Positions 1 through 64,000 of a stretch of DNA of 64,000 nt are shown here, piece after piece. Location of the stretch: the NCBI GenBank assembly GCA_002189035.1, contig NEEC01000035.1, positions 1-64,000 of the forward strand, written 5' to 3'. Position numbers and translations under genes: made by a program. Within the stretch, counting starts at the first letter, position 1. Each line of letters begins with the position of its first letter. Under the pieces are notes generated by a model that ran no database searches, was not told the origin of the DNA, and saw nothing but the letters and a program-made list of their open reading frames with translations. This DNA comes from Utricularia gibba (lineage: Eukaryota > Streptophyta > Magnoliopsida > Lamiales > Lentibulariaceae).

Positions 1-75
1 AGTCGCATCGTCGCGAACGTGGTGGCAATTTGTGGCACATCTAAAGGCTAAGATAAGGCGATAATTCGAGCTTTG

Positions 76-759
76 ATGCATCCTCGGACGAAGAAGCTTT
101 CAACACGGAAGCTGACCGGCACGGAAAGGGGTTCGAAACGGTATGCCGGGCGCAGCTTGACTCATCACGGTTTTCAGGATATGGCCGAAATACCGAACGG
201 TGTGCGAGGCACCATGAGGCTGCAGGTAGGGACACACCCAAAGCTTGTTCAGAGATCGCCTCGAAAACCCATACTTCACATCACCCAATAAAACGCACAT
301 GTGAAACCCGAAAATCACAATCGGGTCGATTCTCGTTTTCCGAGTCGCATCGTCGTGAACGTGGTGGCCAATTTGTGGCACATCTGAAGGCTAAGATAAG
401 GCGATAATTCGAGCTCTGATGCATCCTAGGACGAAGAAGCTTTCAACACGGAAGCTGACCGGCACGGAAAGGGGTTCGAAACGGTAAGCCGGCGCAGCGT
501 GACTCAACACGGTTTCAGGATATCGACGAGATACCGAACGGTGTGCGTGGCCACCATGAGGCTGCAGGTAGGGACACACCAGAGCTTGTTCAGAGATCGC
601 ATCGAAAACCCATACTTCACGTCATCCTATAAAACGCAGATGTTTTGCAAGGCAAAAATCACAATCGCGTCGATTCTCGTTCCGAGTCGCATCGTCGCGA
701 ACGTGGTGGCCAATTTGTGGCACATCAAAGGCTAAGATTAGGCGATAATTCGAGCTTTG
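76..759. repeat. Two-unit segment, first copy of a 1.72-kb-spaced duplication
   Basis: Unit 76 ends with the CACATGT/GGGTCG variant and unit 419 carries the linked set CCTAGGACG, ACGGTAAG, ACTCAACACG, GCATCGAAAAC and GATTAGG. The same two-unit succession recurs at 1794-2478, offset by 1716-1718 bp, which is five monomers. The segment is therefore half of a duplicated pair, or a remnant of a five-unit higher-order repeat. Confidence 0.8.
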
Positions 760-1793
760 ATGCATCCTCGGACGAAGAAGCTTTCAACACGGAAGCTGAC
801 CGGCACGTAAAGGGGTTCGAAACGGTATGCCGGGCGCAGCTTGACTCATCACGGTTTTCAGGATATGGCCGAAATACCGAACGGTGTGCGAGGCCACCAT
901 GAGGCTGCACGTAGGACACACCCAGAGCTTGTTCAGAGATCGCCTCGAAAACCCATACTTCACGTCACCCAATAAAACGCACATGTTTGGAAACCCGAAA
1001 ATCACAATCGGGTCGATTCTCGTTTTCCGAGTCGCATCGTCGCGAACGTGGTGGCCAATTTGTGGCACATCTGAAGGCTAAGATAAGGCGATAATTCGAG
1101 CTCTGATGCATCCTCGGACGAAGAAGCTTTCAACACGGAAGCTGACCGGCGGAAAGGGGTTCGAACGGTATGCCGAGCGCAGCTTGACTCATCACGATTT
1201 TCAGGATATGGCCGAAATACCGAACGGTGTGCGAGGCCACCATGAGGCTGCAAGTAGGGACACACCTAGAGCTTGTTCAGAGATCGCCTCGAAAACCCAT
1301 ACTTCACGTCACCAATAAAACGCAGATGTTTTGCAAGCCGAAAATCACAATCGCGTCGATTCTCGTGTTCCGAGTCGCATCGTCGCGAACGTGGTGGCCA
1401 ATTTGTGGCACATCTAAAGCTAAGATAAGGCGATAATTCGAGCTTTGATGCATCCTCGGACGAAGAAGCTTTCAACACGGAAGCTGACCGGCACGGAAAG
1501 GGGTTCGAAACGGTATGCCGAGCGCAGCTTGACTCATCACGTTTTCAGGATATGGCCGAAATACCGAACGGTGTGCGAGGCCACCTTGAGGCTGCGGGTA
1601 GGAACACACCTAGAGCTTGTTCAGAGATCGCCTCGAAAACCCATACTTCACGTCACCCAATAAAACGCAGATGTTTTGCAAGGCGAAAATCACAATCGCG
1701 TCGATTCTCGTGTTCCGAGTCGCATCGTCGCGAACGTGGTGGCCAATTTGTGGCACATCTAAAGGCTAAGATAAGGCGATAATTCGAGCTTTG

Positions 1794-2478
1794 ATGCATC
1801 TCGGACGAAGAAGCTTTCAACACGGAAGCTGACCGGCACGGAAAGGGGTTCGAAACGGTATGCCGGGCGCAGCATGACTCACGGTTTCAGGATATGGCCG
1901 AAATACCGAACGGTGTGCGAGGCCACCATGAGGCTGCAGGTAGGGACACACCCAGAGCTTGTTCAGAGATCGCCTCGAAAACCCATACTTCACATCACCC
2001 AATAAAACGCACATGTAGGAAACCCGAAAATCACAATCGGGTCGATTCTCGTTTTCCGAGTCGCATCGTCGCGAACGTGGTGGCCAATTTGTGGCACATC
2101 TGAAGGCTAAGATAAGGCGATAATTCGAGCTCTGATGCATCCTAGGACGAAGAAGCTTTCAACACGGAAGCTGACCGGCACGGAAAGGGGTTCGAAACGG
2201 TAAGTCGGCGCAGCGTGACTCAACACGTCTTCAGGATATCCGAGATGCGAAACCGAACGGTGTGCGGCCACCATGAGGCTGCACGGGGACGCACAAAGAG
2301 CTTGTTCAGAGATCGCATCGAAAACCCATACTTCACGTCATCCAATAAAACGCAGATGTTTTGCAAGGCAAAAATCACAATCGCGTCGATTCTCGTGTTC
2401 CGAGTCGCATCGTCGCGAACGTGGTGGCCAATTTGTGGCACATCTAAAGGCTAAGATTAGGCGATAATTCGAGCTTTG
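1794..2478. repeat. Two-unit segment, second copy of the 1.72-kb-spaced duplication
   Basis: It has the same variant order as 76-759, with small differences: GCATGACTCACGG and CACATGTAGG in the first unit, and ACACGTCTTCAGGATATCC in the second. The following unit at 2479 does not continue the match to 760 apart from the shared CACGTAGG, so the higher-order period ends here. Confidence 0.8.
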
Positions 2479-5400
2479 ATGCATCCTCGGACGAAGAAGC
2501 TTTCAACACGGAAGCTGACCGGCACGGAAAGGGGTTCGAAACGGTATGCCGGGCGCAGCATGACTCATCACGGTTTTCAGGATATGGCCGAAATACCGAA
2601 CGGTGTGCGAGGCCACCATGAGGCTGCACGTAGGGACACACCCAGAGCTTGTTCAGAGATCGCCTCGAAAACCCATACTTCACGTCATCCAATAAAACGC
2701 AGATGTTTGCAAGGCGAAAATCACAATCGCGTCGATTCTCGTTTCCGAGTCGCATCGTCGCGAACGTGGTGGCCAATTTGTGGCACATCTGAAGGCTAAG
2801 ATAAGGCGATAATTCGAGCTTTGATGCATCCTCGGACGAAGAAGCTTTCAACACGGAAGCTGACCGGCACGGAAAGGGGTTCGAAACGGTATGCCGGGCG
2901 CAGCATGACTCATCACGGTTTTCAGGATATGGCCGAAATACCGAACGGTGTGCGAGGCCACCATGAGGCTGCAGGTAGGACACACCCAGAGCTTGTTCAG
3001 AGATCGCCTCGAAAACCCATACTTCACGTCATCCAATAAAACGCAGATGTTTTGCAACCGAAAATCACAATCGCGTCGATTCTCGTGTTCCGAGTCGCAT
3101 CGTCGCGAACGTGGTGGCCAATTTGTGGCACATCTAAAGGCTAAGATAAGGCGATAATTCGAGCTTTGATGCATCCTCGGACGAAGAAGCTTTCAACACG
3201 GAAGCTGACCGGCACGGAAAGGGGTTCGAAACGGTATGCCGGGCGCAGCTTGACTCATCACGGTTTTCAGGATATATGGCCGAAATACCGAACGGTGTGC
3301 GAGGCCACCATGAGGCTGCACGTAGGGACACACCCAGAGCTTGTTCAGAGATCGCCTCGAAAACCCATACTTCACGTCATCCAATAAAACGCAGATGTTT
3401 TGCAAGGCGAAAATCACAATCGCGTCGATTCTCGTGTTCCGAGTCGCATCGTCGCGAACGTGGTGGCCAATTTGTGGCACATCTGAAGGCTAAGATAAGG
3501 CGATAATTCGAGCTTTGATGCATCCTCGGACGAAGAAGCTTTCAACACGGAAGCTGACCGGCACGGAAAGGGGTTCGAAACGGTATGCCGGGCGCAGCTT
3601 GACTCATCACGGTTTTCAGGATATGGCCGAAATACCGAACGGTGTGCGAGGCCACCATGAGGCTGCAGTAGGGACACACCAGAGCTTGTTCAGAGATCGC
3701 CTCGAAAACCCATACTTCACGTCATCCAATAAAACGCAGATGTTTTGCAAGGCGAAAATCACAATCGCGTCGATTCTCGTGTTCCGAGTCGCATCGTCGC
3801 GAACGTGGTGGCCAATTTGTGGCACATCTGAAGGCTAAGATAAGGCGATAATTCGAGCTTTGATGCATCCTCGGACGAAGAAGCTTTCAACACGGAAGCT
3901 GACCGGCACGGAAAGGGGTTCGAAACGGTATGCCGGGCGCAGCATGACTCATCACGGTTTTCAGGATATGGCCGAAATACCGAACGGTGTGCGAGGCCAC
4001 CATGAGGCTGCGGGTAGGACACACCAGAGCTTGTTCAGAGATCGCCTCGAAAACCCATACTTCACGTCATCCAATAAAACGCAGATGTTTTGCAAGGCGA
4101 AAATCACAATCGCGTCGATTCTCGTTTTCCGAGTCGCATCGTCGCGAACGTGGTGGCCAATTTGTGGCACATCTAAGGCTAAGATAAGGCGATAATTCGA
4201 GCTTTGATGCATCCTCGGACGAAGAAGCTTTCAACACGGAAGCTGACCGGCACGGAAAGGGGTTCGAAACGGTATGCCGGGCGCAGCATGACTCATCACG
4301 GTTTTCAGGATATGGCCGAAATACCGAACGGTGTGCGAGGCCACCATGAGGCTGCAGGTAGGGACACACCCAGAGCTTGTTCAGAGATCGCCTCGAAAAC
4401 CCATACTTCACGTCATCCAATAAAACGCAGATGTTTTGCAAGCGAAAATCACAATCGCGTCGATTCTCGTGTTCCGAGTCGCATCGTCGCGAACGTGGTG
4501 GCCAATTTGTGGCACATCTGAAGGCTAAGATAAGGCGATAATTCGAGCTTTGATGCATCCTCGGACGAAGAAGCTTTCAACACGGAAGCTGACCGGCACG
4601 GAAAGGGGTTCGAAACGGTATGCCGGGCGCAGCATGACTCATCACGGTTTTCAGGATATGGCCGAAATACCGAACGGTGTGCGAGGCCACCATGAGGCTG
4701 CAGTAGGGACACACCCAGAGCTTGTTCAGAGATCGCCTCGAAAACCCATACTTCACGTCATCCAATAAAACGCAGATGTTTTGCAAGCGAAAATCACAAT
4801 CGCGTCGATTCTCGTGTTCCGAGTCGCATCGTCGCGAACGTGGTGGCCAATTTGTGGCACATCTGAAGGCTAAGATAAGGCGATAATTCGAGCTTTGATG
4901 CATCCTCGGACGAAGAAGCTTTCAACACGGAAGCTGACCGGCACGGAAAGGGGTTCGAAACGGTATGCCGGGCGCAGCATGACTCATCACGGTTTTCAGG
5001 ATATGGCCGAAATACCGAACGGTGTGCGAGGCCACCATGAGGCTGCGGGTAGGGACACACCCAGAGCTTGTTCAGAGATCGCCTCGAAAACCCATACTTC
5101 ACGTCACCCAATAAAACGCAGATGTTTTGCAAGGCGAAAATCACAATCGCGTCGATTCTCGTTTTCCGAGTCGCATCGTCGCGAACGTGGTGGCCAATTT
5201 GTGGCACATCTGAAGGCTAAGATAAGGCGATAATTCGAGCTTTGATGCATCCTCGGACGAAGAAGCTTTCAACACGGAAGCTGACCGGCACGGAAAGGGG
5301 TTCGAAACGGTATGCCGGCGCAGCATGACTCATCACGGTTTTCAGGATATGGCCGAAATACCGAACGGTGTGCGAGGCCACCATGAGGCTGGGGTAGGGA

Positions 5401-5639
5401 CACACCCAGAGCTTGTTCAGAGATCGCCTCGAAAACCCATACTTCACGTCATCCAATAAAACGCAGATGTTTTGCAAGCGAAAATCACAATCGCGTCGAT
5501 TCTCGTGTTCCGAGTCGCATCGTCGCGAACGTGGTGGCCAATTTGTGGCACATCTGAAGGCTAAGATAAGGCGATAATTCGAGCTTTGATGCATCCTCGG
5601 ACGAAGAAGCTTTCAACACGGAAGCTGACCGGCACGGAA
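2479..5639. repeat. Clean subfamily A array, nine to ten units
   Basis: ATGCAT starts are at 2479, 2824, 3169, 3518, 3863, 4207, 4553, 4898, 5245 and 5589. Units differ mainly at a few sites: GCAGGTAGGG, GCAGTAGGG, GCACGTAGGG or GCGGGTAGGG; CTTGACTC or CATGACTC; GTGTTCCG, GTTTTCCG or GTTTCCG; and GCAAGGCG, GCAAGCG or GCAACCG. I could not see a regular higher-order period in these states. Many differences are one-base length changes at runs of G, T or C, where long-read consensus error is common. Confidence 0.93.
4207..4552 (+). repeat. Reference monomer, subfamily A (346 bp)
   Basis: This is a clean A-type unit, counted from ATGCATCC. Landmarks are the HindIII site AAGCTT at 4225-4230, the BstBI site TTCGAA at 4263-4268, the A-specific GGATATGGCC at 4308-4317, CCACCATGAG at 4341-4350, AATAAA at 4419-4424, ATCGTCGCGAACG from 4483, and the A-specific CTAAGATAAGG near the end. 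A short imperfect direct repeat lies near the start, where AAGCTTTCAACACGG is followed directly by AAGCTGACCGGCACGG. A neighbouring A unit has about 52% GC by hand count. No frame stays open through the whole unit, so I do not regard it as coding. The start point is arbitrary because the array is circularly permutable. Confidence 0.93.
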
Positions 5640-7133
5640 AGGGTTCGTTCCGAAACGGTATGGCCGGGCGAGGCAGAGGCTTGACTCATCACGTGTTTCA
5701 GGATATGGTCCGAAATACCGAAGGCGGTGTGCGGACGGCCAACACATGAGGCTGCGGTAGGGACACACCCAGAGCTTGTTCAGAGATCGCCTCGAAAACC
5801 CATACTTCACGTCATCCAATAAAACGCAGATGTTTTGCAAGGCGAAAATCACAATCGCGTCGATTCTCGTTTCCGAGTCGCATCGTCGCGAACGTGGTGG
5901 CCAATTTGTGGCACATCTGAAGGCTAACGAACATAAGATAATTCGAGCTTGACTGCATCCTCCTCGAAGAAGAAGCAACACGGAAGCTGACCGGCACGGA
6001 AAGGGGTTCGAAACGGTATGCCGGGCGCAGCATGACTCATCACGGTTTTCAGGATATGGCCGAAATACCGAACGGTGTGCGAGGCCACCGATGATTCTCG
6101 GCTCGCACGTAGGGCACATCTGAAGGCTAGATAAGGCGATAATCGTTCAGGACGAAGAAGCTTTCAGCTGACCTCGAAAACCCATGACTTCACGGTCATC
6201 CGAATAAAAGGCGCAGGGATGTTTCGCAAGTGCAGAAAATCACAATCGCGTCGATTCTCGTGTTCCGAGTCGCATCGTCGCGAACGTGGTGGCCAATTTG
6301 TGGCACATCTGAAGGCTAAGATAAGGCGATAATTCGAGCTTTGATGCATCCTCGGACGAAGAAGCTTTCAACACGGAAGCTGACCGGCACGGAAAGGGGT
6401 TCGAAACGGTATGCCGGGCGCAGCATGACTCATCACGGTTTTCAGGATATGGCACGAAATACCGAACGGTGTGCGAGAAGCCACCATGAGGCTGCAGGCT
6501 AGGGACACTCACACCAGAGCTTGTTGCAGAGATCGCCTCGAAAACCCATACTTCACGTCATCGCAATAAAACGCAGAGTGTTTTGGCAAGTGCGAAAATC
6601 ACAATCGGTTTCAACACGATTCGGGTCGTGTTCCGAGTCGCATCGTCGCGAACGTGGTGGCCAATTTGATGGCACGATCTGAAGGCTAAGATAATAAGGC
6701 GATAATTTCGAGCTTTGATGCATCCTCGGACGAAGAAGCTTTCAACACGGAAGCTCGACCGCACGGAAAGGGGTTCGAAACGGTATGCCGGGCGCAGCAT
6801 GACGGTATGCAGCATGACTCACACGGTTTTCAGGATATGGCCGAAATACCGAACGGTGTGCGAGGCCACCATGAGGCTGCAGTAGGGACACACCCAGAGC
6901 TTGTTCAGAGATCGCCTCGAAAACCCATACTTCACGTCATCCAATAAAACGCAGATGTTTTGCAAGGCGAGCGTCGATTCTCGTTTTCGCAAACGTGGTG
7001 GCGTGGCACATCTGAAGGCTCGATAATTCGAATGCGGACGAAGAAGCTTTCAACACGGATTTTGTGGCACGAGTGAATCGTAAGATAACGATGGCAGCTT
7101 GATGGCACAACGAAGAAGCTAAGATAAGGCGAT
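5640..7133. repeat. Insertion-rich, noisy A units
   Basis: The order of monomer landmarks is kept, but extra bases are sprinkled through it. Examples are TTCGTTCCGAAACGG for TTCGAAACGG, GGATATGGTCCGAAATACC for GGATATGGCCGAAATACC, and around 6185-6235 extra single bases in CATCCAATAAAACGCAG and GATGTTTTGCAAG. Parts are also shortened, such as 5930-5990 and 6961-7130. A small stutter at about 6798-6825 repeats CAGCATGAC. The pattern of single inserted bases resembles an unpolished long read more than biological decay. Confidence 0.8.
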
Positions 7134-11800: not shown

Positions 11801-12310
11801 TTCAGGATATGCCGAAATACCGAACGGTGTGCGAGGCCACCATGAGGCTGCAGAGATCAGAGATCGCCTCGAAAACCCATACTTCACGTCACCAATAAAA
11901 CGCAGATGTTTTGCAAGCGAAAATCGAAGTCGCATCGTCGCGAACGTGGTGGCCAATTTGTGGCACATCTGAAGGCTAAGATAAGGCGATAATTCGAGCT
12001 CGATTCCTCGGACGAAGAAGCTTTCAACACGGAAGCTGACCGGCACGGAAAGGGTTCGAAACGGTATGCCGGGCGCAGCTTGACGGTTTTCAGGATGGCC
12101 GAAATACCGAACGGTGTGCGAGGCCACCATGAGGCACATCTAAGGCTAAGAAAATGCGTCGATAGTCGCATCGTCGCGAACGTGGTGGCCAATTTGTGGC
12201 ACATCTGAAGGCTAAGATAAGGCGATATTCGAGCTTGATGCATCCTCGGACGAGAAGCTTTCAAACGGAAGCTTTCAAACACCGGAACGCTGAACCGAAC
12301 GAGGCCCATA
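8859..12310. repeat. Degraded A block with shortened units
   Basis: Units range from about 100 to 345 bp and lose internal pieces, but the remaining pieces stay in monomer order. Examples are 9340-9480 with many small deletions, 9655-9800 reduced to fragments, and 10130-10235, where ATCGTCGCGAACGTGG is reached early through a TAGTCGCATCG junction. A patch at about 8985-9130 is poorly related to the monomer. AGTCGCATCGTCGCG is the commonest re-entry point. I see no gene in it. Confidence 0.85.
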
Positions 12311-15300
12311 GAGATCGCCTCGAAAACCCATACTTCACGTCATCCAATAAAACGCAGATGTTTTGCAAGGCGAAAATCACAATCGCGTCGATTCTCGTGT
12401 TCCGAGTCGCATCGTCGCGAACGTGGTGGCCAATTTGTGGCACATCTAAAGGCTAAGATAAGGCGATAATTCGAGCTTTGATGCATCCTCGGACGAAGAA
12501 GCTTTCAACACGGAAGCTGACCGGCACGGAAAGGGGTTCGAAACGGTATGCCGGCGCAGCATGACTCATCACGGTTTTCAGGATATGGCCGAAATACCGA
12601 ACGGTGTGCGAGGCCACCATGAGGCTGCGGTAGGACACACCAGAGCTTGTTCAGAGATCGCCTCGAAAACCCATACTTCACGTCCCAATAAAACGCAGAT
12701 GTTTTGCAACCGAAAATCACAATCGGTCGATTCTCGTTTTCCGAGTCGCATCGTCGCGAACGTGGTGGCCAATTTGTGGCACATCTGAAGGCTAAGATAA
12801 GGCGATAATTCGAGCTTTGATGCATCCTCGGACGAAGAAGCTTTCAACACGGAAGCTGACCGGCACGGAAAGGGGTTCGAAACGGTATGCCGGGCGCAGC
12901 ATGACTCATCACGGTTTTCAGGATATGGCCGAAATACCGAACGGTGTGCGAGGCCACCATGAGGCTGCAGTAGGGACACACCCAGAGCTTGTTCAGAGAT
13001 CGCCTCGAAAACCCATACTTCACGTCATCCAATAAAACGCAGATGTTTTGCAAGCGAAAATCACAATCGCGTCGATTCTCGTTTCCGAGTCGCATCGTCG
13101 CGAACGTGGTGGCCAATTTGTGGCACATCTGAAGGCTAAGATAAGGCGATAATTCGAGCTTTGATGCATCCTCGGACGAAGAAGCTTTCAACACGGAAGC
13201 TGACCGGCACGGAAAGGGTTCGAAACGGTATGCCGGGCGCAGCATGACTCATCACGGTTTTCAGGATATGGCCGAAATACCGAACGGTGTGCGAGGCCAC
13301 CATGAGGCTGCACGTAGGGACACACCCAGAGCTTGTTCAGAGATCGCCTCGAAAACCCATACTTCACGTCATCCAATAAAACGCAGATGTTTTGCAAGGC
13401 GAAAATCACAATCGCGTCGATTCTCGTGTTCCGAGTCGCATCGTCGCGAACGTGGTGGCCAATTTGTGGCACATCTGAAGGCTAAGATAAGGCGATAATT
13501 CGAGCTTTGATGCATCCTCGGACGAAGAAGCTTTCAACACGGAAGCTGACCGGCACGGAAAGGGGTTCGAAACGGTATGCCGGCGCAGCATGACTCATCA
13601 CGGTTTTCAGGATATGGCCGAAATACCGAACGGTGTGCGAGGCCACCATGAGGCTGCGGTAGGGACACACCCAGAGCTTGTTCAGAGATCGCCTCGAAAA
13701 CCCATACTTCACGTCACCAATAAAACGCAGATGTTTTGCAAGGCGAAAATCACAATCGCGTCGATTCTCGTTTTCCGAGTCGCATCGTCGCGAACGTGGT
13801 GGCCAATTTGTGGCACATCTGAAGGCTAAGATAAGGCGATAATTCGAGCTCTGATGCATCCTCGGACGAAGAAGCTTTCAACACGGAAGCTGACCGGCAC
13901 GGAAAGGGGTTCGAAACGGTATGCCGGGCGCAGCTGACTCATCACGGTTTCAGGATATGGCCGAAATACCGAACGGTGTGCGAGGCCACCATGAGGCTGC
14001 GGGTAGGGACACACCCAGAGCTTGTTCAGAGATCGCCTCGAAAACCCATACTTCACGTCAAATAAAACGCAGATGTTTTGCAAGAAATCACAATCGCGTC
14101 GATTCTCGTGTTCCGAGTCGCATCGTCGCGAACGTGGTGGCCAATTTGTGGCACATCTGAAGGCTAAGATAAGGCGATAATTCGAGCTTGATGCATCCTC
14201 GGACGAAGAAGCTTTCAACACGGAAGCTGACCGGCACGGAAAGGGGTTCGAAACGGTATGCCGGGCGCAGCATGACTCATCACGGTTTTCAGGATATGGC
14301 CGAAATACCGAACGGTGTGCGAGGCCACCATGAGGCTGCGGGTAGGGACACACCCAGAGCTTGTTCAGAGATCGCCTCGAAAACCCATACTTCACGTCAT
14401 CCAATAAAACGCAGATGTTTTGCAAGGCGAAAATCACAATCGCGTCGATTCTCGTGTTCCGAGTCGCATCGTCGCGAACGTGGTGGCCAATTTGTGGCAC
14501 ATCTGAAGGCTAAGATAAGGCGATAATTCGAGCTTGATGCATCCTCGGACGAAGAAGCTTTCAACACGGAAGCTGACCGGCACGGAAAGGGGTTCGAAAC
14601 GGTATGCCGGGCGCAGCATGACTCATCACGGTTTTCAGGATATGGCCGAAATACCGAACGGTGTGCGAGGCCACCATGAGGCTGCGGTAGGGACACACCC
14701 AGAGCTTGTTCAGAGATCGCCTCGAAAACCCATACTTCACGTCACCAATAAAACGCAGATGTTTTGCAAGAAAATCACAATCGCGTCGATTCTCGTTTCC
14801 GAGTCGCATCGTCGCGAACGTGGTGGCCAATTTGTGGCACATCTGAAGGCTAAGATAAGGCGATAATTCGAGCTTGATGCATCCTCGGACGAAGAAGCTT
14901 TCAACACGGAAGCTGACCGGCACGGAAAGGGGTTCGAAACGGTATGCCGGGCGCAGCTGACTCATCACGGTTTTCAGGATATGGCCGAAATACCGAACGG
15001 TGTGCGAGGCCACCATGAGGCTGCGGGTAGGGACACACCCAGAGCTTGTTCAGAGATCGCCTCGAAAACCCATACTTCACGTCACCAATAAAACGCAGAT
15101 CAAGCGAAAATCACAATCGCGTCGATTCTCGTTTCCGAGTCGCATCGTCGCGAACGTGGTGGCCAATTTGTGGCACATCTGAAGGCTAAGATAAGGCGAT
15201 AATTCGAGCTTGATGCATCCTCGGACGAAGAAGCTTTCAACACGGAAGCTGACCGGCACGGAAAGGGGTTCGAAACGGTATGCCGGCGCAGCTGACTCAT
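12311..15300. repeat. Clean subfamily A array
   Basis: ATGCAT starts are at 12481, 12820, 13164, 13510, 13854, 14191, 14537 and near 14877 and 15213. Toward the right end small losses increase: GAGCTTGATG for GAGCTTTGATG, CACCAATAAA for CACCCAATAAA, and GCAGATCAAGCG at about 15096 with the GTTTTG lost. The block then passes into a damaged stretch. All units are A-type at the HindIII and GATATGGCC positions. Confidence 0.91.
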
Positions 15301-16160
15301 CACGGTTTTCGTACCGAACGGTGTGCGAGGCCACCATGAGGCTGCAGGGACACACCCAGAGCTTGTTCAGAGATCGCCTCGAAAACCCATACTTCACGTC
15401 ATCCAATAAAACGCAGATGTTTTGCAAGGCGAAAATCACAATCGGTCGATTCTCGTGAGTTCGTCGTGGTGGCCAATTTGTGGCACATCTGAAGGCTCGA
15501 TAATTCGAATGCGTTTCAACACGGAAGCTGACCGGCACGGAAAGGGTTCGAAACGGTATGTGGGACACTGAAGCTATTCAGAGATCGCGAAAGGCAGATG
15601 TTTTGCTTCGATGCCGAGTCGCATCGTCGCGAACGACACATCTGAAGGCTCGATAATTCGAATGCATCGGACGAAGCTGTGACCGGCACGGAAAGGGGTT
15701 CGAAACGGTATGCCGGGCGCAGCATGACTCATCACGGTTTTCAGGATATGGCCGAAATACCGAACGGTGTGCGAGGCCACCATGAGGCTGCGGTAGGGAG
15801 CTAGAGATCGCCTCGAAAACCCATACTTCACGCAGCTCACAATATTCAGATCGTCGCGAACGTCCAATTTGTGGCACATCGAAAACGATAATTCGAGCAT
15901 GCATCCTCGGACGAAGAAGCTCAACACGGAAGCTGACCGGCACGGAAAGGGTTCGAAACGGTATGCCGTGACTCATCACGGTTTTCAGGATATGGCCGAA
16001 ATACCGAACGGTGTGCGAGGCCACCATGAGGCTGCGGTTTGTTCAGAGATCGCCTCGAAAACCCATACTTCACGTGCAGCTTCTCGTTCTCCCGAGTCGC
16101 ATCGTCGCGAACGTGGTGGCCAATTTGTGGCACATCTGAAGGCTAAGATAAGGCGATAAT
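15301..16160. repeat. Degraded A block
   Basis: Several shortened units lie here. Fragments such as GCCAATTTGTGGCACATC, CGGAAGCTGACCGGCACGG and CCACCATGAGGCTGCGG are intact, with 30-150 bp missing between them (15460-15520, 15570-15680, 15800-15900, 16035-16100). Order is kept throughout. Nothing other than satellite is visible. Confidence 0.85.
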
Positions 16161-19100
16161 TCGAGCTTTGATGCATCCTCGGACGAAGAAGCTTTCAACA
16201 CGGAAGCTGACCGGCACGGAAAGGGGTTCGAAACGGTATGCCGGGCGCAGCATGACTCATCACGGTTTTCAGGATATGGCCGAAATACCGAACGGTGTGC
16301 GAGGCCACCATGAGGCTGCGGTAGGACACACCCAGAGCTTGTTCAGAGATCGCCTCGAAAACCCATACTTCACGTCATCCAATAAAACGCAGATGTTTTG
16401 CAAGGCGAAAATCACAATCGCGTCGATTCTCGTGTTCCGAGTCGCATCGTCGCGAACGTGGTGGCCAATTTGTGGCACATCTGAAGGCTAAGATAAGGCG
16501 ATAATTCGAGCTTTGATGCATCCTCGGACGAAGAAGCTTTCAACACGGAAGCTGACCGGCACGGAAAGGGGTTCGAAACGGTATGCCGGGCGCAGCATGA
16601 CTCATCACGGTTTTCAGGATATGGCCGAAATACCGAACGGTGTGCGAGGCCACCATGAGGCTGCAGGTAGGGACACACCCAGAGCTTGTTCAGAGATCGC
16701 CTCGAAAACCCATACTTCACGTCATCCAATAAAACGCAGATGTTTTGCAACCGAAAATCACAATCGCGTCGATTCTCGTGTTCCGAGTCGCATCGTCGCG
16801 AACGTGGTGGCCAATTTGTGGCACATCTGAAGGCTAAGATAAGGCGATAATTCGAGCTTTGATGCATCCTCGGACGAAGAAGCTTTCAACACGGAAGCTG
16901 ACCGGCACGGAAAGGGGTTCGAAACGGTATGCCGGGCGCAGCATGACTCATCACGGTTTTCAGGATATGGCCGAAATACCGAACGGTGTGCGAGGCCACC
17001 ATGAGGCTGCAGTAGGGACACACCCAGAGCTTGTTCAGAGATCGCCTCGAAAACCCATACTTCACGTCATCCAATAAAACGCAGATGTTTTGCAAGGCGA
17101 AAATCACAATCGCGTCGATTCTCGTTTCCGAGTCGCATCGTCGCGAACGTGGTGGCCAATTTGTGGCACATCTGAAGGCTAAGATAAGGCGATAATTCGA
17201 GCTTTGATGCATCCTCGGACGAAGAAGCTTTCAACACGGAAGCTGACCGGCACGGAAAGGGGTTCGAAACGGTATGCCGGGCGCAGCATGACTCATCACG
17301 GTTTTCAGGATATGGCCGAAATACCGAACGGTGTGCGAGGCCACCATGAGGCTGCAGTAGGGACACACCCAGAGCTTGTTCAGAGATCGCCTCGAAAACC
17401 CATACTTCACGTCATCCAATAAAACGCAGATGTTTTGCAAGGCGAAAATCACAATCGGTCGATTCTCGTTTCCGAGTCGCATCGTCGCGAACGTGGTGGC
17501 CAATTTGTGGCACATCTGAAGGCTAAGATAAGGCGATAATTCGAGCTTTGATGCATCCTCGGACGAAGAAGCTTTCAACACGGAAGCTGACCGGCACGGA
17601 AAGGGGTTCGAAACGGTATGCCGGGCGCAGCATGACTCATCACGGTTTTCAGGATATGGCCGAAATACCGAACGGTGTGCGAGGCCACCATGAGGCTGCG
17701 GTAGGACACACCCAGAGCTTGTTCAGAGATCGCCTCGAAAACCCATACTTCACGTCATCCAATAAAACGCAGATGTTTGCAAGGCGAAAATCACAATCGC
17801 GTCGATTCTCGTGTTCCGAGTCGCATCGTCGCGAACGTGGTGGCCAATTTGTGGCACATCTAAGGCTAAGATAAGGCGATAATTCGAGCTTTGATGCATC
17901 CTCGGACGAAGAAGCTTTCAACACGGAAGCTGACCGGCACGGAAAGGGGTTCGAAACGGTATGCCGGGCGCAGCATGACTCATCACGGTTTTCAGGATAT
18001 GGCCGAAATACCGAACGGTGTGCGAGGCCACCATGAGGCTTAGGGAGAGCTTGTTCAGAGATCGCCTCGAAAACCCATACTTCACGGAAATAAAACACGC
18101 TAAGATGGCGGTTCAAAACGGAAATGAAACCCGGGCGCAGCTGACTCATCACGGTTTTCAGGATATGGCCGAAATACCGAACGGTGTGCGAGGCCACCAT
18201 GAGGCTGCAGTAGGGACACACCCAGAGCTTGTTCAGAGATCGCCTCGAAAACCCATACTTCACGTCATCCAATAAAACGCAGATGTTTTGCAATTCGAAC
18301 GGTTGGTGGCCAATTTGTGGCACATCTAAGGCTAAGATAAGGCGATAATTCGAGCTTTGATGCATCCTCGGACGAAGAAGCTTTCAACACGGAAGCTGAC
18401 CGGCACGGAAAGGGGTTCGAAACGGTATGCCGGGCGCAGCATGACTCATCACGGTTTTCAGGATATGGCCGAAATACCGAACGGTGTGCGAGGCCACCAT
18501 GAGGCTGCAGGTAGGGACACACCAGAGCTTGTTCAGAGATCGCCTCGAAAACCCATACTTCACGTCATCCAATAAAACGCAGATGTTTTGCAAGGCGAAA
18601 ATCACAATCGCGTCGATTCTCGTGTTCCGAGTCGCATCGTCGCGAACGTGGTGGCCAATTTGTGGCACATCTGAAGGCTAAGATAAGGCGATAATTCGAG
18701 CTTTGATGCATCCTCGGACGAAGAAGCTTTCAACACGGAAGCTGACCGGCACGGAAAGGGGTTCGAAACGGTATGCCGGGCGCAGCTTGACTCATCACGG
18801 TTTTCAGGATATGGCCGAAATACCGAACGGTGTGCGAGGCCACCATGAGGCTGCAGTAGGGACACACCCAGAGCTTGTTCAGAGATCGCCTCGAAAACCC
18901 ATACTTCACGTCATCCAATAAAACGCAGATGTTTGCAAGGCGAAAATCACAATCGGGTCGATTCTCGTGTTCCGAGTCGCATCGTCGCGAACGTGGTGGC
19001 CAATTTGTGGCACATCTGAAGGCTAAGATAAGGCGATAATTCGAGCTTTGATGCATCCTCGGACGAAGAAGCTTTCAACACGGAAGCTGACCGGCACGGA

Positions 19101-53200: not shown

Positions 53201-54290
53201 GCGTCGATTCTCGTGTTCCGAGTCGCATCGTCGCGAACGTGGTGGCCAATTTGTGGCACATCTGAAGGCTAATATAAGGCGATAATTCGAGCTCTGATGC
53301 ATCCTCGGACGAAGATGCTTTCAACACGGAAGCTGACCGGCACGGAAAGGGGTTCGAAACGGTATGCCGGCGCAGCGTGACTCATCATTTCAAGATATCG
53401 TACCGAACGGTGTGCGAGGCCACCATGAGGCTGCGGGTAGGGACACACCCAGAGCTTGTTCAGAGATCGCCTCGAAAACCCATACTTCACGTCATCCAAT
53501 AAAACGCAGATCTTTTGCAAGCGAAAATCACAATCGCGTCGATTCTCGTGTTCCGAGTCGCATCGTCGCGAACGTGGTGGCCAATTTGTGGCACATCTGA
53601 AGGCTAATATAAGGCGATAATTCGAGCTCTGATGCATCCTCGGACGAAGATGCTTTCAACACGGAAGCTGACCGGCACGGAAAGGGGTTCGAAACGGTAT
53701 GCCGGGCGCAGCGTGACTCATCATTTCAAGATATCGACGAATACCGAACGGTGTGCGAGGCCACCATGAGGCTGCGGGTAGGGACACACCCAGAGCTTGT
53801 TCAGAGATCGCTCGAAAACCCATACTTCACGTCATCCAATAAAACGCAGATCTTTTGCAAGCCGAAAATCACAATCGCGTCGATTCTCGTGTTCCGAAAC
53901 TCATCGTCGCGAACGTGGTGGCCAATTTGTGGCACATCTGAAGGCTAATATAAGGCGATAATTCGAGCTCTGATGCATCCTCGGACGAAGATGCTTTCAA
54001 CACGGAAGCTGACCGGCACGGAAAGGGTTCGAAACGGTATGCCGGGCGCAGCGTGACTCATCTTGATCTTCAAGATATCGACGAGATGCCGAACGGTGTG
54101 CGAGGCCACCATGAGGCTGCGGGTAGGAACACACCAGAGCTTGTTCAGAGATCGCCTCGAAAACCCATACTTCACGTCACCCAATAAAACAGATGTTTTG
54201 CAAGCGAAAATCACAATCGCGTCGATTCTCGTGTTCCGAATCGTCGCGAACGTGGTGGCCAATTTGTGGCACATCTGAAGGCTAAATAAA
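50221..54290. repeat. Subfamily B array with rearranged units
   Basis: Full units alternate with rearranged ones. At 51138 TAGGAC is joined directly to GCGAACGTGG, deleting about 130 bp and giving a unit of about 220 bp. At 51334 and 51463 the segment from GAGGCCACCATGAGGC to TTGTTCAGAGA occurs twice, 129 bp apart. At 52090-52200 and 52320-52500 units are heavily shortened. B1 and B2 units alternate between 52956 and 54290. Confidence 0.88.
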
Positions 54291-54660
54291 CGGTAAGCGT
54301 GAATTGAGGCACATGCATCTCTCGAAGGTATGAGAACGATGCCAATTTGTGGCACATCGGACGATAATTCGAGCTCTGATGCATCCTCGGACGAAGATTC
54401 AACACGGAAGCTGACCGGCACGGAAGGGCTTCGAAACGGTATGCGCGGCGTGACTCATCTTGATCTTCAAGATATCGACGAGATGCCGAACGGTGTGCGA
54501 GGCCACCATGAGGCTGCGGTAGGGACACACCAGAGCTTGTTCAGAGATTCAAGATATATGCCGGATGCCGAACGTGACGAGGCCACGATCTGATGCAGGA
54601 TGCGGGTAGGACGACATGCCGAGACGCTTGTTCAGAGATGCGAGGCGAACCATGAGGCTG
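54291..54660. repeat. Short degraded B segment
   Basis: A damaged patch (54285-54340) precedes a nearly normal B1 start at 54370-54545. The unit then decays into fragments in which GAACGTGACGAGGCCACG and TGCGGGTAGGACGAC are stuttered before GCGGGTAGGACACACTAGAG resumes at 54659. Confidence 0.82.
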
Positions 54661-55536
54661 CGGGTAGGACACACTAGAGCTTGTTCAGAGATCGCCTCGA
54701 AAACCCATACTTCACGTCACCAATAAAACGCAGATGTTTTGCAAGGCGAAAATCACAATCGCGTCGATTCTGTGTTCCGAGTCGCATCGTCGCGAACGTG
54801 GTGGCCAATTTGTGGCACATCTGAAGGCTAATATAAGGCGATAATTCGAGCTCTGATGCATCCTCGGACGAAGATGCTTTCAACACGGAAGCTGACCGGC
54901 ACGGAAAGGGTTCGAAACGGTATGCCGGCGCAGCGTGACTCATCTTGATTTCAAGATATCGCCGATGCCGAACGGTGTGCGAGGCCACCATGAGGCTGCG
55001 GGTAGGACACACCCAGAGCTTGTTCAGAGATCGCTCGAAAACCCATACTTCACGTCACCCAATAAAACGCAGATTTTGCAAGCGAAAATCACAATCGCGT
55101 CGATTCTCGTGTTCCGAGTCGCATCGTCGCGAACGTGGTGGCCAATTTGTGGCACATCTGAAGGCTATATAAGGCGATAATTCGAGCTCTGATGCATCCT
55201 CGGACGAAGATGCTTTCAACACGGAAGCTGACCGGCACGGAAACGGCTTCGAAACGGTATGCCGGGCGCAGCGTGACTCATCTTGATCTTCAAGATATCG
55301 ACGAGATGCCGAACGGTGTGCGAGGCCACCATGAGGCTGCGGGTAGGAACACACCAGAGCTTGTTCAGAGATCGCCTCGAAAACCCATACTTCACGTCAC
55401 CCAATAAAACGCAGATGTTTTGCAAGCCGAAAATCACAATCGCGTCGATTCTCGTGTTCCGAGTCGCATCGTCGCGAACGTGGTGGCCAATTGTGGCACA
55501 TCTGAAGGCTAAGATAAGGCGATAATTCGAGCTCTG

Positions 55537-55906
55537 ATGCATCCTCGGACGAAGAAGCTTTCAACACGGAAGATGACCGGCTCGGAACGGGCTTCGAAAC
55601 GAGATGCCGGGCGCAGCGTGAATCATCATGATCTTCAAGATATCGACGAATGCCGAACGGTGTGCGAGGCCACCATGAGGCTGCGGGTAGGAACACACCT
55701 AGAGCTTGTTCAGAGATCGCCTCGAAAACCCATACTTCACGTCACCCAATAAAACCCATACTTCACGTCATCCAATAAAACGCAGATCTTTTGCAAGCCG
55801 AAAATCACAATCGCGTCGATTCTCGTGTTCCGAAACTCATCGTCGCGAACGTGGTGGCCAAAGTGGCACATCTGAAGGCTAATATAAGGCGATAATTCGA
55901 GCTCTG
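55537..55906. repeat. Mosaic 370-bp unit: A-like start, B1 middle, B2 end
   Basis: The unit is preceded by CTAAGATAAGG and has the A-type HindIII site. It then has private substitutions GAAGATGACCGGCTCGGAAC, GAAACGAGATGCC and GTGAATCATCATG. Its middle is B1 (ATCTTCAAGATATCGACG). At 55725-55750 and 55751-55776 a 26-bp segment starting AAAACCCATACTTCACG is doubled, the first with the B1 state CACCC and the second with the B2 state CATCC. After it come AGATCTTTTGC and GTTCCGAAACTCATCG of B2. An out-of-register crossover between a B1 and a B2 unit explains the extra 26 bp. Confidence 0.82.
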
Positions 55907-57608
55907 ATGCATCCTCGGACGAAGATGCTTTTTCAACACGGAAGCTGACCGGCACGGAAGGGTTCGAAACGGTATGCCGGGCGCAGCGTGACTCATCTTG
56001 ATCTTCAAGATATCGAGATGCCGAACGGTGTGCGAGGCCACCATGAGGCTGCGGGTAGGAACACACCAGAGCTTGTTCAGAGATCGCTCGAAAACCCATA
56101 CTTCACGTCACCCAATAAAACGCAGATGTTTTGCAAGAAAATCACAATCGCGTCGATTCTCGTGTTCCGAGTCGCATCGTCGCGAACGTGGTGGCCAATT
56201 TTGGCACATCTGAAGGCTAATATAAGGCGATAATTCGAGCTCTGATGCATCCTCGGACGAAGATGCTTTCAACACGGAAGCTGACCGCACGGAAAGGGGT
56301 TCGAAACGTATGCCGGCGCAGCGTGACTCATCACTTTTTCAGATATCGCCGAAATACCGAACGGTGTGCGAGGCCACCATGAGGCTGCGGGTAGGGACAC
56401 ACCCAGAGCTTGTTCAGAGATCGCCTCGAAAACCCATACTTCACGTCATCCAATAAAACGCAGATGTTTTGCAAGCGAAAATCACAATCGCGTCGATTCT
56501 CGTGTTCCGAAACGCATCGTCGCGAACGTGGTGGCCAATTTGTGGCACATCTGAAGGCTAATATAAGGCGATAATTCGAGCTGATGCATCCTCGGACGAA
56601 GATGCTTTCAACACGGAAGCTGACCGGCACGGAAAGGGTTCGAAACGGTATGCCGGCGCAGCGTGACTCATCTTGATCTTCAAGATATCGACGAGATGCC
56701 GAACGGTGTGCGAGGCCACCATGAGGCTGCGGGTAGGAACACACCTAGAGCTTGTTCAGAGATCGCTCGAAAACCCATACTTCACGTCACCCAATAAAAC
56801 GCAGATGTTTTGCAAGGCGAAAATCACAATCGCGTCGATTCTCGTGTTCCGAGTCGCATCGTGCGTGGTGGCCAATTTGTGGCACATCTGAAGGCTAATA
56901 TAAGGCGATAATTCGAGCTCTGATGCATCCTCGGACGAAGATGCTTTCAACACGGAAGCTGACCGGCACGGAAAGGGTTCGAAACGGTATGCCGGGCGCA
57001 GCGTGACTCATCTTGATCTTCAAGATATCGACGAGATGCCGAACGGTGTGCGAGGCCACCATGAGGCTGCGGGTAGGACACACCAGAGCTTGTTCAGAGA
57101 TCGCCTCGAAAACCCATACTTCACGTCACCCAATAAAACGCAGATGTTTGCAAGGCGAAAATCACAATCGCGTCGATTCTCGTGTTCCGAGTCGCATCGT
57201 CGCGAACGTGGTGGCCAATTTGTGGCACATCTGAAGGCTAATATAAGGCGATAATTCGAGCTCTGATGCATCCTCGGACGAAGATGCTTTCAACACGGAA
57301 GCTGACCGGCACGGAAGGGTTCGAAACGGTATGCCGGGCGCAGCGTGACTCATCTTGATTTCAAGATATCGCCGAAATGCCGAACGGTGTGCGAGGCCAC
57401 CATGAGGCTGCGGGTAGGGACACACCCAGAGCTTGTTCAGAGATCGCTCGAAAACCCATACTTCACGTCATCCAATAAAACGCAGATGTTTTGCAAGGCG
57501 AAAATCACAATCGCGTCGATTCTCGTGTTCCGAGTCGCATCGTCGCGAACGTGGTGGCCAATTTGTGGCACATCTGAAGGCTAATATAAGGCGATAATTC
57601 GAGCTCTG

Positions 57609-57951
57609 ATGCATCCTCGGACGAAGATGCTTTCAACACGGAAGCTGACCGGCACGGAAAGGGGTTCGAAACGGTATGCCGCGCAGCGTGACTCATCACG
57701 GTTTTCAGGATATCGCCGAAATACCGAACGGTGTGCGAGGCCACCATGAGGCTGCGGGTAGGGAACACCCAGAGCTTGTTCAGAGATCGCTCGAAAACCC
57801 ATACTTCACGTCATCCAATAAAACGCAGATCTTTTGCAAGCCGAAAATCACAATCGCGTCGATTCTCGTGTTCCGAAACTCATCGTCGCGAACGTGGTGG
57901 CCAATTTGTGGCACATCTGAAGGCTAATATAAGGCGATAATTCGAGCTCTG
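57609..57951 (+). repeat. Reference monomer, subfamily B, haplotype B2 (343 bp)
   Basis: B2 differs from B1 at several linked positions. It has CACGGTTTTCAGGATATCGC with CGAAATACC instead of the TTGATCTTCAAG segment, ACGTCATCCAATAAA instead of CACCC, a BglII site AGATCT at 57827-57832 where other units read AGATGT, and GTTCCGAAACTCATCG where others read GTTCCGAGTCGCATCG (57876 onward). The CGGTTTTCAGGATAT and ATCC states are shared with subfamily A, so B2 may keep ancestral or A-derived segments inside a B background. Not every B2 unit has all markers; for example the unit at 61700 lacks the BglII site. Confidence 0.85.
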
Positions 57952-58296
57952 ATGCATCCTCGGACGAAGATGCTTTCAACACGGAAGCTGACCGGCACGG
58001 AAAGGGGTTCGAAACGGTATGCCCGGCGCAGCGTGACTCATCTTGATCTTCAAGATATCGACGAGATGCCGAACGGTGTGCGAGGCCACCATGAGGCTGC
58101 GGGTAGGAACACACCAGAGCTTGTTCAGAGATCGCCTCGAAAACCCATACTTCACGTCACCCAATAAAACGCAGATTTTTGCAAGGCGAAAATCACAATC
58201 GCGTCGATTCTCGTGTTCCGAGTCGCATCGTCGCGAACGTGGTGGCCAATTTGTGGCACATCTGAAGGCTAATATAAGGCGATAATTCGAGCTCTG

Positions 58297-58641
58297 ATGC
58301 ATCCTCGGACGAAGATGCTTTCAACACGGAAGCTGACCGGCACGGAAAGGGGTTCGAAACGGTATGCCGGGCGCAGCGTGACTCATCTTGATCTTCAAGA
58401 TATCGACGAGATGCCGAACGGTGTGCGAGGCCACCATGAGGCTGCGGGTAGGACACACCAGAGCTTGTTCAGAGATCGCCTCGAAAACCCATACTTCACG
58501 TCACCCAATAAAACGCAGATGTTTTGCAAGGCGAAAATCACAATCGCGTCGATTCTCGTGTTCCGAGTCGCATCGTCGCGAACGTGGTGGCCAATTTGTG
58601 GCACATCTGAAGGCTAATATAAGGCGATAATTCGAGCTCTG
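58297..58641 (+). repeat. Reference monomer, subfamily B, haplotype B1 (345 bp)
   Basis: This unit shows the B differences from A: a SacI site GAGCTC just before the ATGCAT (58289-58294), GAAGATGC in place of the HindIII site, CAGCGTGACTC instead of CAGCATGACTC, and CTAATATAAGG instead of CTAAGATAAGG. B1 is marked by TTGATCTTCAAGATATCGAC, which carries an EcoRV site at 58399-58404, and by ACGTCACCCAATAAA, GATGTTTTGC and an intact GTTCCGAGTCGCATCG. The rest of the unit matches A closely, so A and B are subfamilies of one satellite rather than two satellites. Confidence 0.92.
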
Positions 58642-61600
58642 ATGCATCCTCGGACGAAGATGCTTTCAACACGGAAGCTGACCGGCACGGAAAGGGTTCG
58701 AAACGGTATGCCGGCGCAGCGTGACTCATCATTTCAGATATCGCCGAATACCGAACGGTGTGCGAGGCCACCCGGCTGCGGGTAGGGACACACCCAGAGC
58801 TTGTTCAGAGATCGCCTCGAAAACCCATACTTCACGTCACCCAATAAAACGCAGATGTTTTGCAAGCGAAAATCACAATCGCGTCGATTCTCGTGTTCCG
58901 AACGCATCGTCGCGAACGTGGTGGCCAATTTGTGGCACATCTGAAGGCTAATATAAGGCGATAATTCGAGCTCTGATGCATCCTCGGACGAAGATGCTTT
59001 CAACACGGAAGCTGACCGGCACGGAAAGGGGTTCGAAACGGTATGCCGGCGCAGTGACTCATCTTGATCTTCAAGATATCGACGAGATGCCGAACGGTGT
59101 GCGAGGCCACCATGAGGCTGCGGGTAGGGACACACCCAGAGCTTGTTCAGAGATCGCCTCGAAAACCCATACTTCACGTCACCCAATAAAACGCAGATGT
59201 TTTGCAAGCGAAAATCACAATCGCGTCGATTCTCGTGTTCCGAGTCGCATCGTCGCGAACGTGGTGGCCAATTTGTGGCACATCTGAAGGCTAATATAAG
59301 GCGATAATTCGAGCTCTGATGCATCCTCGGACGAAGATGCTTTCAACACGGAAGCTGACCGGCACGGAAAGGGGTTCGAAACGGTATGCCGGCGCAGCGT
59401 GACTCATCTTGATCTTCAAGATATCGACGAATGCCGAACGGTGTGCGAGGCCACCATGAGGCTGCGGGTAGGAACACACCAGAGCTTGTTCAGAGATCGC
59501 CTCGAAAACCCATACTTCACGTCACCAATAAAACGCAGATGTTTTGCAAGGCGAAAATCACAATCGCGTCGATTCTCGTGTTCCGAGTCGCATCGTCGCG
59601 AACGTGGTGGCCAATTTGTGGCACATCTGAAGGCTAATATAAGGCGATAATTCGAGCTCTGATGCATCCTCGGACGAAGATGCTTTCAACACGGAAGCTG
59701 ACCGGCACGGAAAGGGGTTCGAAACGGTATGCCCGGCGCAGCGTGACTCATCTTGATTTCAAGATATCGACGAGATGCCGAACGGTGTGCGAGGCCACCA
59801 TGAGGCTGCGGGTAGGACACACCAGAGCTTGTTCAGAGATCGCTCGAAAACCCACTTCACGTCACCCAATAAAACGCAGATGTTTTGCAAGCGAAAATCA
59901 CAATCGCGTCGATTCTCGTGTTCCGAGTCGCATCGTCGCGAACGTGGTGGCCAATTTGTGGCACATCTGAAGGCTAATATAAGGCGATAATTCGAGCTCT
60001 GATGCATCCTCGGACGAAGATGCTTTCAACACGGAAGCTGACCGGCACGGAAAGGGGTTCGAAACGGTATGCCGGGCGCAGCGTGACTCATCTTGATCTT
60101 CAAGATATCGACGAGATGCCGAACGTGTGCGAGGCCACCATGAGGCTGCGGGTAGGACACACCCAGAGCTTGTTCAGAGATCGCTCGAAAACCCATACTT
60201 CACGTCACCCAATAAAACGCAGATCTTTTGCAAGCGAAAATCACAATCGCGTCGATTCTCGTGTTCCGAAGTCATCGTCGCGAACGTGGGCCAATTTGTG
60301 GCACATCTGAAGGCTAATATAGGCGATAATTCGAGCTCTGATGCATCCTCGGACGAAGATGCTTTCAACACGGAAGCTGACCGGCACGGAAAGGGTTCGA
60401 AACGGTATGCCGGCGCAGCGTGACTCATCTTGATTTCAAGATATCGACGATGCCGAACGGTGTGCGAGGCCACCATGAGGCTGCGGGTAGGAACACACCA
60501 GAGCTTGTTCAGAGATCGCCTCGAAAACCCATACTTCACGTCACCCAATAAAACGCAGATGTTTTGCAAGCGAAAATCACAATCGCGTCGATTCTCGTGT
60601 TCCGAGTCGCATCGTCGCGAACGTGGTGGCCAATTTGTGGCACATCTGAAGGCTAATATAAGGCGATAATTCGAGCTCTGATGCATCCTCGGACGAAGAT
60701 GCTTTCAACACGGAAGCTGACCGGCACGGAAAGGGGTTCGAAACGGTATGCCGGGCGCAGCGTGACTCATCGTTTTCAAGATATCCGAGATGCCGAACGG
60801 TGTGCGAGGCCACCATGAGGCTGCGGGTAGGGACACACCCAGAGCTTGTTCAGAGATCGCTCGAAAACCCATACTTCACGTCATCCAATAAAACGCAGAT
60901 CTTTTGCAAGCCGAAATCACAATCGCGTCGATTCTCGTGTTCCGAACTCATCGTCGCGAACGTGGTGGCCAATTTGTGGCACATCTGAAGGCTAATATAA
61001 GGCGATAATTCGAGCTCTGATGCATCCTCGGACGAAGATGCTTTCAACACGGAAGCTGACCGGCACGGAAAGGGGTTCGAAACGGTATGCCGGGCGCAGC
61101 GTGACTCATCTTGATTTCAAGATATCGCGAATGCCGAACGTGTGCGAGGCCACCATGAGGCTGCGGGTAGGGAACACACCAGAGCTTGTTCAGAGATCGC
61201 CTCGAAAACCCATACTTCACGTCACCAATAAAACGCAGATGTTTTGCAAGGCGAAAATCACAATCGCGTCGATTCTCGTGTTCCGAGTCGCATCGTCGCG
61301 AACGTGGTGGCCAATTTGTGGCACATCTGAAGGCTAATATAAGGCGATAATTCGAGCTCTGATGCATCCTCGGACGAAGATGCTTTCAACACGGAAGCTG
61401 ACCGGCACGGAAGGGTTCGAAACGGTATGCCGGCGCAGCGTGACTCATCTTGATTTTCAGATATCGAGATGCCGAACGGTGTGCGAGGCCACCATGAGGC
61501 TGCGGGTAGGGACACACCCAGAGCTTGTTCAGAGATCGCCTCGAAAACCCATACTTCACGTCACCAATAAAACGCAGATTTTGCAAGGCGAAAATCACAA

Positions 61601-64000
61601 TCGCGTCGATTCTCGTGTTCCGAGTCGCATCGTCGCGAACGTGGTGGTGCCAATTTGTGGCACATCTGAAGGCTAAATAAGGCGATAATTCGAGCTCTGA
61701 TGCATCCTCGGACGAAGATGCTTTCAACACGGAAGCTGACCGGCACGGAAAGGGGTTCGAAACGGTATGCCGGCGCAGCGTGACTCATCACGGTTTTCAG
61801 GATATCACGAAATACCGAACGGTGTGCGAGGCCACCATGAGGCTGCGGGTAGGGACACACCCAGAGCTTGTTCAGAGATCGCCTCGAAAACCCATACTTC
61901 ACGTCACCCAATAAACGCAGATTTTTGCAAGCGAAAATCACAATCGCGTCGATTCTCGTGTTCCGAACTCATCGTCGCGAACGTGGTGGCCAATTTGTGG
62001 CACATCTGAAGGCTAATATAAGGCGATAATTCGAGCTCTGATGCATCCTCGGACGAAGATGCTTTCAACACGGAAGCTGACCGGCACGGAAAGGGTTCGA
62101 AACGGTATGCCGGCGCAGCGTGACTCATCTTGATCTTCAAGATATCGACGAAGATGCCGAACGGTGTGCGAGGCCACCATGAGGCTGCGGGTAGGAACAC
62201 ACCTAGAGCTTGTTCAGAGATCGCCTCGAAAACCCATACTTCACGTCACCCAATAAAACGCAGATGTTTTGCAAGGCGAAAATCACAATCGCGTCGATTC
62301 TCGTGTTCCGAGTCGCATCGTCGCGAACGTGGTGGCCAATTTGTGGCACATCTGAAGGCTAAATAAGGCGATAATTCGAGCTCTGATGCATCCTCGGACG
62401 AAGATGCTTTCAACACGGAAGCTGACCGGCACGGAAAGGGGTTCGAAACGGTATGCGGCGCAGCGTGACTCATCTTGATTTTCAAGATATCGACGAATAC
62501 CGAACGGTGTGCGAGGCCACCATGAGGCTGCGGGTAGGACACACCAGAGCTTGTTCAGAGATCGCTCGAAAACCCATACTTCACGTCACCCAATAAAACG
62601 CAGATGTTTTGCAAGGCGAAAATCACAATCGCGTCGATTCTCGTGTTCCGAGTCGCATCGTCGCGAACGTGGTGGCCAATTTGTGGCACATCTGAAGGCT
62701 AATATAAGGCGATAATTCGAGCTCTGATGCATCCTCGACGAAGATGCTTTCAACACGGAAGCTGACCGGCACGGAAAGGGGTTCGAAACGGTATGCCGGC
62801 GCAGCGTGACTCATCATTTCAGATATCGCCGAATACCGAACGGTGTGCGAGGCCACCATGAGGCTGCGGGTAGGGACACACCCAGAGCTTGTTCAGAGAT
62901 CGCTCGAAAACCCATACTTCACGTCATCCAATAAAACGCAGATCTTTTGCAAGCGAAAATCACAATCGCGTCGATTCTCGTGTTCGCATCGTCGCGAACG
63001 TGGTGGCCAATTTGTGGCACATCTGAAGGCTAATATAAGGCGATAATTCGAGCTCTGATGCATCCTCGGACGAAGATGCTTTCAACACGGAAGCTGACCG
63101 GCACGGAAAGGGGTTCGAAACGGTATGCCGGGCGCAGCGTGACTCATCTTGATCTTCAAGATATCGACGAATGCCGAACGGTGTGCGAGGCCACCATGAG
63201 GCTGCGGGTAGGAACACACCAGAGCTTGTTCAGAGATCGCTCGAAAACCCATACTTCACGTCACCCAATAAAACGCAGATGTTTTGCAAGGCGAAAATCA
63301 CAATCGCGTCGATTCTCGTGTTCCGAGTCGCATCGTCGCGAACGTGGTGGCCAATTTGTGGCACATCTGAAGGCTAATATAAGGCGATAATTCGAGCTCT
63401 GATGCATCCTCGGACGAAGATGCTTTCAACACGGAAGCTGACCGGCACGGAAAGGGGTTCGAAACGGTATGCCGGCGCAGCGTGACTCATCTTGATCTTC
63501 AAGATATCGACGAGATGCCGAACGTGTGCGAGCCACCATGAGGCTGCGGGTAGGAACACACCTAGAGCTTGTTCAGAGATCGCTCGAAAACCCATACTTC
63601 ACGTCACCCAATAAAAAACAGATGTTTTGCAAGCGAAAATCACAATCGCGTCGATTCTCGTGTTCCGAGTCGCATCGTCGCGAACGTGGTGGCCAATTTG
63701 TGGCACATCTGAAGGCTAATATAAGGCGATAATTCGAGCTCTGATGCATCCTCGGACGAAGATGCTTTCAACACGGAAGCTGACCGGCACGGAAAGGGGT
63801 TCGAAACGGTATGCCGGCGCAGCGTGACTCATCTTGATTTCAAGATATCGACGAATACCGAACGGTGTGCGAGGCCACCATGAGGCTGCGGGTAGGACAC
63901 ACCCAGAGCTTGTTCAGAGATCGCATCGAAAACCCATACTTCACGTCATCCAATAAAACGCAGATGTTTTGCAAGCGAAAATCACAATCGCGTCGATTCT

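Follow-up and report, generated by a model that had tools for sequence, protein, structure and literature searches.

Do the satellite units between positions 57607 and 64000 of this DNA form a three-unit higher-order repeat, recently amplified as a block, as the original prediction proposed? The window, by which we mean the whole analyzed stretch of 64,000 nucleotides, corresponds to C372:1-64000 of the Utricularia gibba assembly, and the contig C372 (95,408 bp) is made wholly of a ~344-bp satellite:

1-64000, + strand: ~344-bp satellite, head to tail (TRF, 138 anchor matches, contig extent)

All 138 anchor matches lie on the + strand. Orderly satellite is found at 1-6970, 12310-18086 and 54639-64000, and the sequence between these portions is largely scrambled. 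Large indels, truncated units and uneven spacing were observed at 19500-52000, where the scrambling is probably a misassembly. The longest period reported by TRF is 500, so a 1-kb period is beyond its reach; every unit was aligned to a cyclic consensus built from C32.

Genomic extent of the satellite family

The assembly searched comprises 516 contigs and 100.09 Mb. A 27-base motif, with at most 2 mismatches allowed, revealed at least 2,184 copies of the family genome-wide, which amounts to at least ~0.75 Mb. Contigs carrying the satellite include C32, C49, C53, C82, C163, C244, C370, C371 and C372, plus others, and there were zero exact matches to three satellite motifs in contigs C1-C31. In C163 and at 12.3-18.1 kb of the window the units are nearly uniform. 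An Rfam scan of 54000-64000 gave no match. Stop codons interrupt every one of the six frames of the satellite consensus, so a coding reading was rejected; two satellite open frames likewise had no Pfam match.

Two monomer types and their blends

The array contains two monomer types that differ at ~14 sites. Type X, the B1 of the original prediction, carries TTGATCTTCAAGATATCGACGAGATG...GTCACC...AGATGT...GAGTCGC, and type Y, the former B2, carries ACGGTTTTCAGGATATCGCCGAAATA...GTCATC...AGATCT...GAAACTC. The units that matter for the question of order are the following, all on the + strand:

54661-64000, + strand: orderly stretch of 27 units, X and Y types, with many one-base deletions at X/Y sites
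55535-55904, + strand: odd unit that matches a C32 'a'-type motif exactly at 55575-55627 and contains an internal 26-bp tandem duplication
57607-57949, + strand: unit 0, the sole pure-Y unit, with Y at all 14 diagnostic sites
58640-58973, + strand: unit 3, Y-like blended unit (Y at 3 diagnostic sites, X at 5 and a deletion at 6)
59660-59999, + strand: unit 6, plain X unit where a strict three-unit order would call for Y
60000-60338, + strand: unit 7, partial Y copy, earlier called 'displaced' (1 Y site, 2 deleted, remainder X)
60679-61017, + strand: unit 9, Y-like blended unit with Y mostly in the 3' half and 5 deleted diagnostic sites
61698-62038, + strand: unit 12, Y-like unit (Y at 9 sites, X at 2 and a deletion at 3)
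62725-63055, + strand: unit 15, blended unit (4 Y, 4 X and 6 deleted sites)
63742-64000, + strand: unit 18, blended unit cut by the window end and continuing beyond it, with Y mainly in the 3' half

Pure units are few among these 27 (four X and one Y), twelve combine both alleles, and 21 of the 27 lack one base precisely at a diagnostic site. The predicted B2-type units were correctly placed, with starts at 57607, 58640, 60679, 61698, 62725 and 63742. The four markers that had been described as linked are only loosely so: all of them occur together in the unit at 57607 alone, and CGAATACC and GTCATCC are also present in the units at 62384 and 57264, neither of which is among the predicted positions. 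In all stretches tested (C372, C244, C49, C53, C371, C370 and C32) Y content had a negative lag-1 correlation, clearly so in C49, C53 and C32, so that Y-like units tend to avoid adjacency.

Tests of the three-unit period

Counted from 57607, the Y-like units are units 0, 3, 9, 12, 15 and 18. Their starts at multiples of three units agree with the proposed B2-B1-B1 spacing; its regularity does not hold throughout, as the order is broken at 59660, at 60000 and after 64000. The chance of six of the seven named units sharing one of the three phases is 0.0017, before allowing for the choice of period, phase and region. Substitution divergence in 57607-64000 was 1.36% at lag 1, 1.27% at lag 2 and 0.82% at lag 3, the lowest value among ten lags; compared with 1.29% in shuffled order, the lag-3 value has p=0.005 for that lag alone, uncorrected. 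The anticipated advantage of lag 3 over lags 1 and 2 was present by substitutions, yet it was gone with gaps counted (3.88% vs 4.28% at lag 1, p=0.125). Neighboring units and units three apart are not equally similar, although the support for this difference is thin. Substitution divergence in the same region was 0.87% at lag 9 (p=0.037) and 1.19% at lag 6 (p=0.32), so units six apart are not unusually alike.

The autocorrelation of Y content in 57607-64000 peaks at lags 3 and 9, with a value of 0.52 at lag 3 (p=0.013; best-lag p over nine lags 0.05-0.07), and Y content by phase is 0.55, 0.07 and 0.09. In the adjoining 64001-72900 of C372 the lag-3 correlation of Y content, 0.07-0.10, was not significant (p=0.24-0.28), and the Y-richest phase at 64-73 kb differs from that in 57607-64000. 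A nine-unit period in C372 at 64-73 kb (corrected p ~0.03) was considered and rejected, as unit identity at lag 9 was unsupportive there. Unit clustering of 57607-64000, which was to return a B2-B1-B1 series, returned BAABAAAAABAABAAAAAA, with no separate types in fixed order.

These units might still belong to a genuine Y-X-X higher-order repeat, with ~1.03-kb blocks produced by unequal exchange and blurred by assembly noise. Such a repeat would fit the Y-like state of six of the seven slots, the rank of lag 3 as the best of ten lags by substitutions, the lag-3 tendency (p ~0.002-0.06, uncorrected) also seen in C53 and at 74-94 kb of C372, and the clean two-unit alternation of X and Y on C49. 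However, lag 6 fails, the corrected p is 0.05-0.07, the phase is broken at 59660, at 60000 and past 64000, and similarity at a distance of three units exceeds that of random pairs by only ~0.5%; by contrast, divergence on C32 is 5.9% between monomer types and 1.8% within them. We regard a genuine Y-X-X repeat as unlikely here. An amplified three-unit block at C372 is possible, but the appearance of Y at every third unit does not prove it.

Deletions at the sites that distinguish X from Y

The distribution of deletions bears on how the printed units arose. At 16 sites polymorphic in the region, deletions account for 68 of 429 cases (15.9%) vs 0.67% at ordinary sites (odds ratio 28, p=2e-52). 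When the sites were defined independently from C32, the values were 4.7% vs 0.6% (p=1e-21). At non-diagnostic sites the 27 units show 94 deletions and only 7 private substitutions. The satellite edge of C244, which lies beside unique DNA and is well resolved, its units being sufficiently distinct for assembly, serves as an internal control: its units carry 24 substitutions and 1.4 deletions each, whereas those of the window carry 3.0 substitutions and 6.6 deletions, and the same diagnostic sites are deleted in 0.5% of cases at that edge vs 13.1% in the window (p=6e-14).

The U. gibba genome was assembled with HGAP from noisy PacBio reads (PMC5793159), with a reported size of 101 Mb, a contig N50 of 3.4 Mb and four chromosome records (PMC5793159, PMC6982007). 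Because the deletions concentrate at X/Y sites and reach only 0.5% at the C244 edge, the printed sequence most likely represents collapsed reads blended into one consensus. We infer read merging as the cause of the deletion marks: reads from different X and Y units would have been merged by the assembler, so that printed units are consensus blends in which X and Y alleles are mixed inside a single unit and a base is dropped where the reads disagree. The Y-every-third pattern over 19 units may then be a weak local remnant of a true order of the units, of how the reads were registered, or of both. As a counterpoint to merging, the phase contents of 0.55, 0.07 and 0.09 are more ordered than free mixing would leave.

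One might instead take the one-base deletions as real satellite variants, with hypervariable sites that carry substitutions and deletions alike, and their recurrence at the same sites across several contigs is in keeping with this. Yet at the C244 edge, which has an eightfold higher frequency of substitutions, they are nearly absent (0.5%) from those sites, and this explanation appears very improbable. The array is, with good probability, a large heterochromatic plant satellite with at least two real monomer types that was collapsed by the assembler and keeps Y at every third unit as a weak remnant. The proposal of a recently amplified three-unit block was not supported. The signal does not recur at twice the period, the phase does not persist beyond 64000, a single Y unit is clean, and units differ mainly by deletions at X/Y sites, which is the signature of a blended assembly consensus. 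Higher-order structure read from a collapsed assembly of noisy reads can be an artefact, and deletions located on the variant sites betray it.

Higher-order organization in other arrays

The family does build higher-order blocks, and their period varies from array to array. On C49 the monomers of the window show a clean Y-X two-unit alternation at 8.7-12.8 kb (lag 2, p<0.001), and on C32 four monomer types follow in fixed order with a hybrid fifth, at ~1.38 kb per block (lag 4, p=0.004). The broader idea that this satellite builds higher-order blocks is thus borne out with periods of two and four, while the three-unit block at C372 is not established. Such blocks, and diverged array edges like that of C244, are generally attributed to unequal exchange and conversion among tandem copies. 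The Y-X alternation spans C49:8700-12900. The four-monomer block with its recurrent hybrid monomer, on the reverse strand of C32:1-28000, is a much better higher-order repeat than that of C372.

A scatter of Y units with no fixed period, from which the original prediction picked out a regular-looking stretch, would agree with the lack of a convincing lag in C371, C370 and C244, with a best lag that varies among arrays (2, 3, 4 and 9) and with p values that are modest once corrected. The clear order on C49 and C32 argues against it, as does the negative lag-1 correlation: Y units avoid neighboring positions, so their order is not wholly random. We consider such scatter conceivable but rather doubtful.

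Higher-order organization of this sort is common in plants. Melters et al. (2013, PMC4053949) recorded it for centromeric satellites of plants and animals in 76 of 171 species. The family shares with these plant and animal repeats tandem monomers with marker variants, in orders of two (C49) and four (C32), and departs from them in the window, where unit order is weak, similarity is not raised at twice the period and the consensus is a blend. Primate alpha satellite likewise has monomer types in ordered blocks and edge units more diverged than inner ones, as on C244; unlike it, the present satellite is from a plant, has a ~344-bp monomer and shows no stable block at C372, and the likeness is one of organization only, with no sequence relation implied. 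Within Lentibulariaceae, Gn7c161 of Genlisea nigrocaulis is also a tandem satellite, a (peri)centromeric repeat of 161 bp against ~344 bp here, compared here by description (PMC4542322).

A candidate centromeric array on C244

Plant-type telomere repeats (TTTAGGG) stand at the start of several contigs and, together with the mitochondrial COX1, whose nearest solved relative by a wide margin is 7jro (E 9e-160) from the plant Vigna radiata, mark the DNA as that of a plant. C244 (3.41 Mb) is one that begins with repeats of this type, including TTCAGGG variants (C244:1-1200). It enters satellite at ~3.29 Mb and then ends inside ~115 kb of array, with matches of ~95% inside the array and ~78% at its border, near 3.2908 Mb. 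The C244 satellite regions inspected were 3290601-3300000 and 3404801-3405668, and the units at the border were diverged. A telomeric start and an end within the array would fit a centromere or other internal heterochromatin, and on sequence grounds the C244 array is a candidate centromeric or pericentromeric satellite. The array of the window may similarly have a (peri)centromere-type or other heterochromatic role.

According to a statement in PMC8333044, which cites the genome paper, the putative centromeric regions of U. gibba lack satellite repeats. The satellite totals at least ~0.75 Mb and is encountered at the inner, non-telomeric end of C244, which is relevant to the claim of satellite-free centromeres as worded there, and this side result may matter more than the three-unit question. 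That array-specific periods of two, three and four coexist with a satellite marking the centromeres of unclosed chromosomes, in a species described without a centromeric satellite, seems to us quite improbable. Elsewhere in the assembly, a mitochondrial contig of 267.5 kb encodes COX1, with a LAGLIDADG intron frame.
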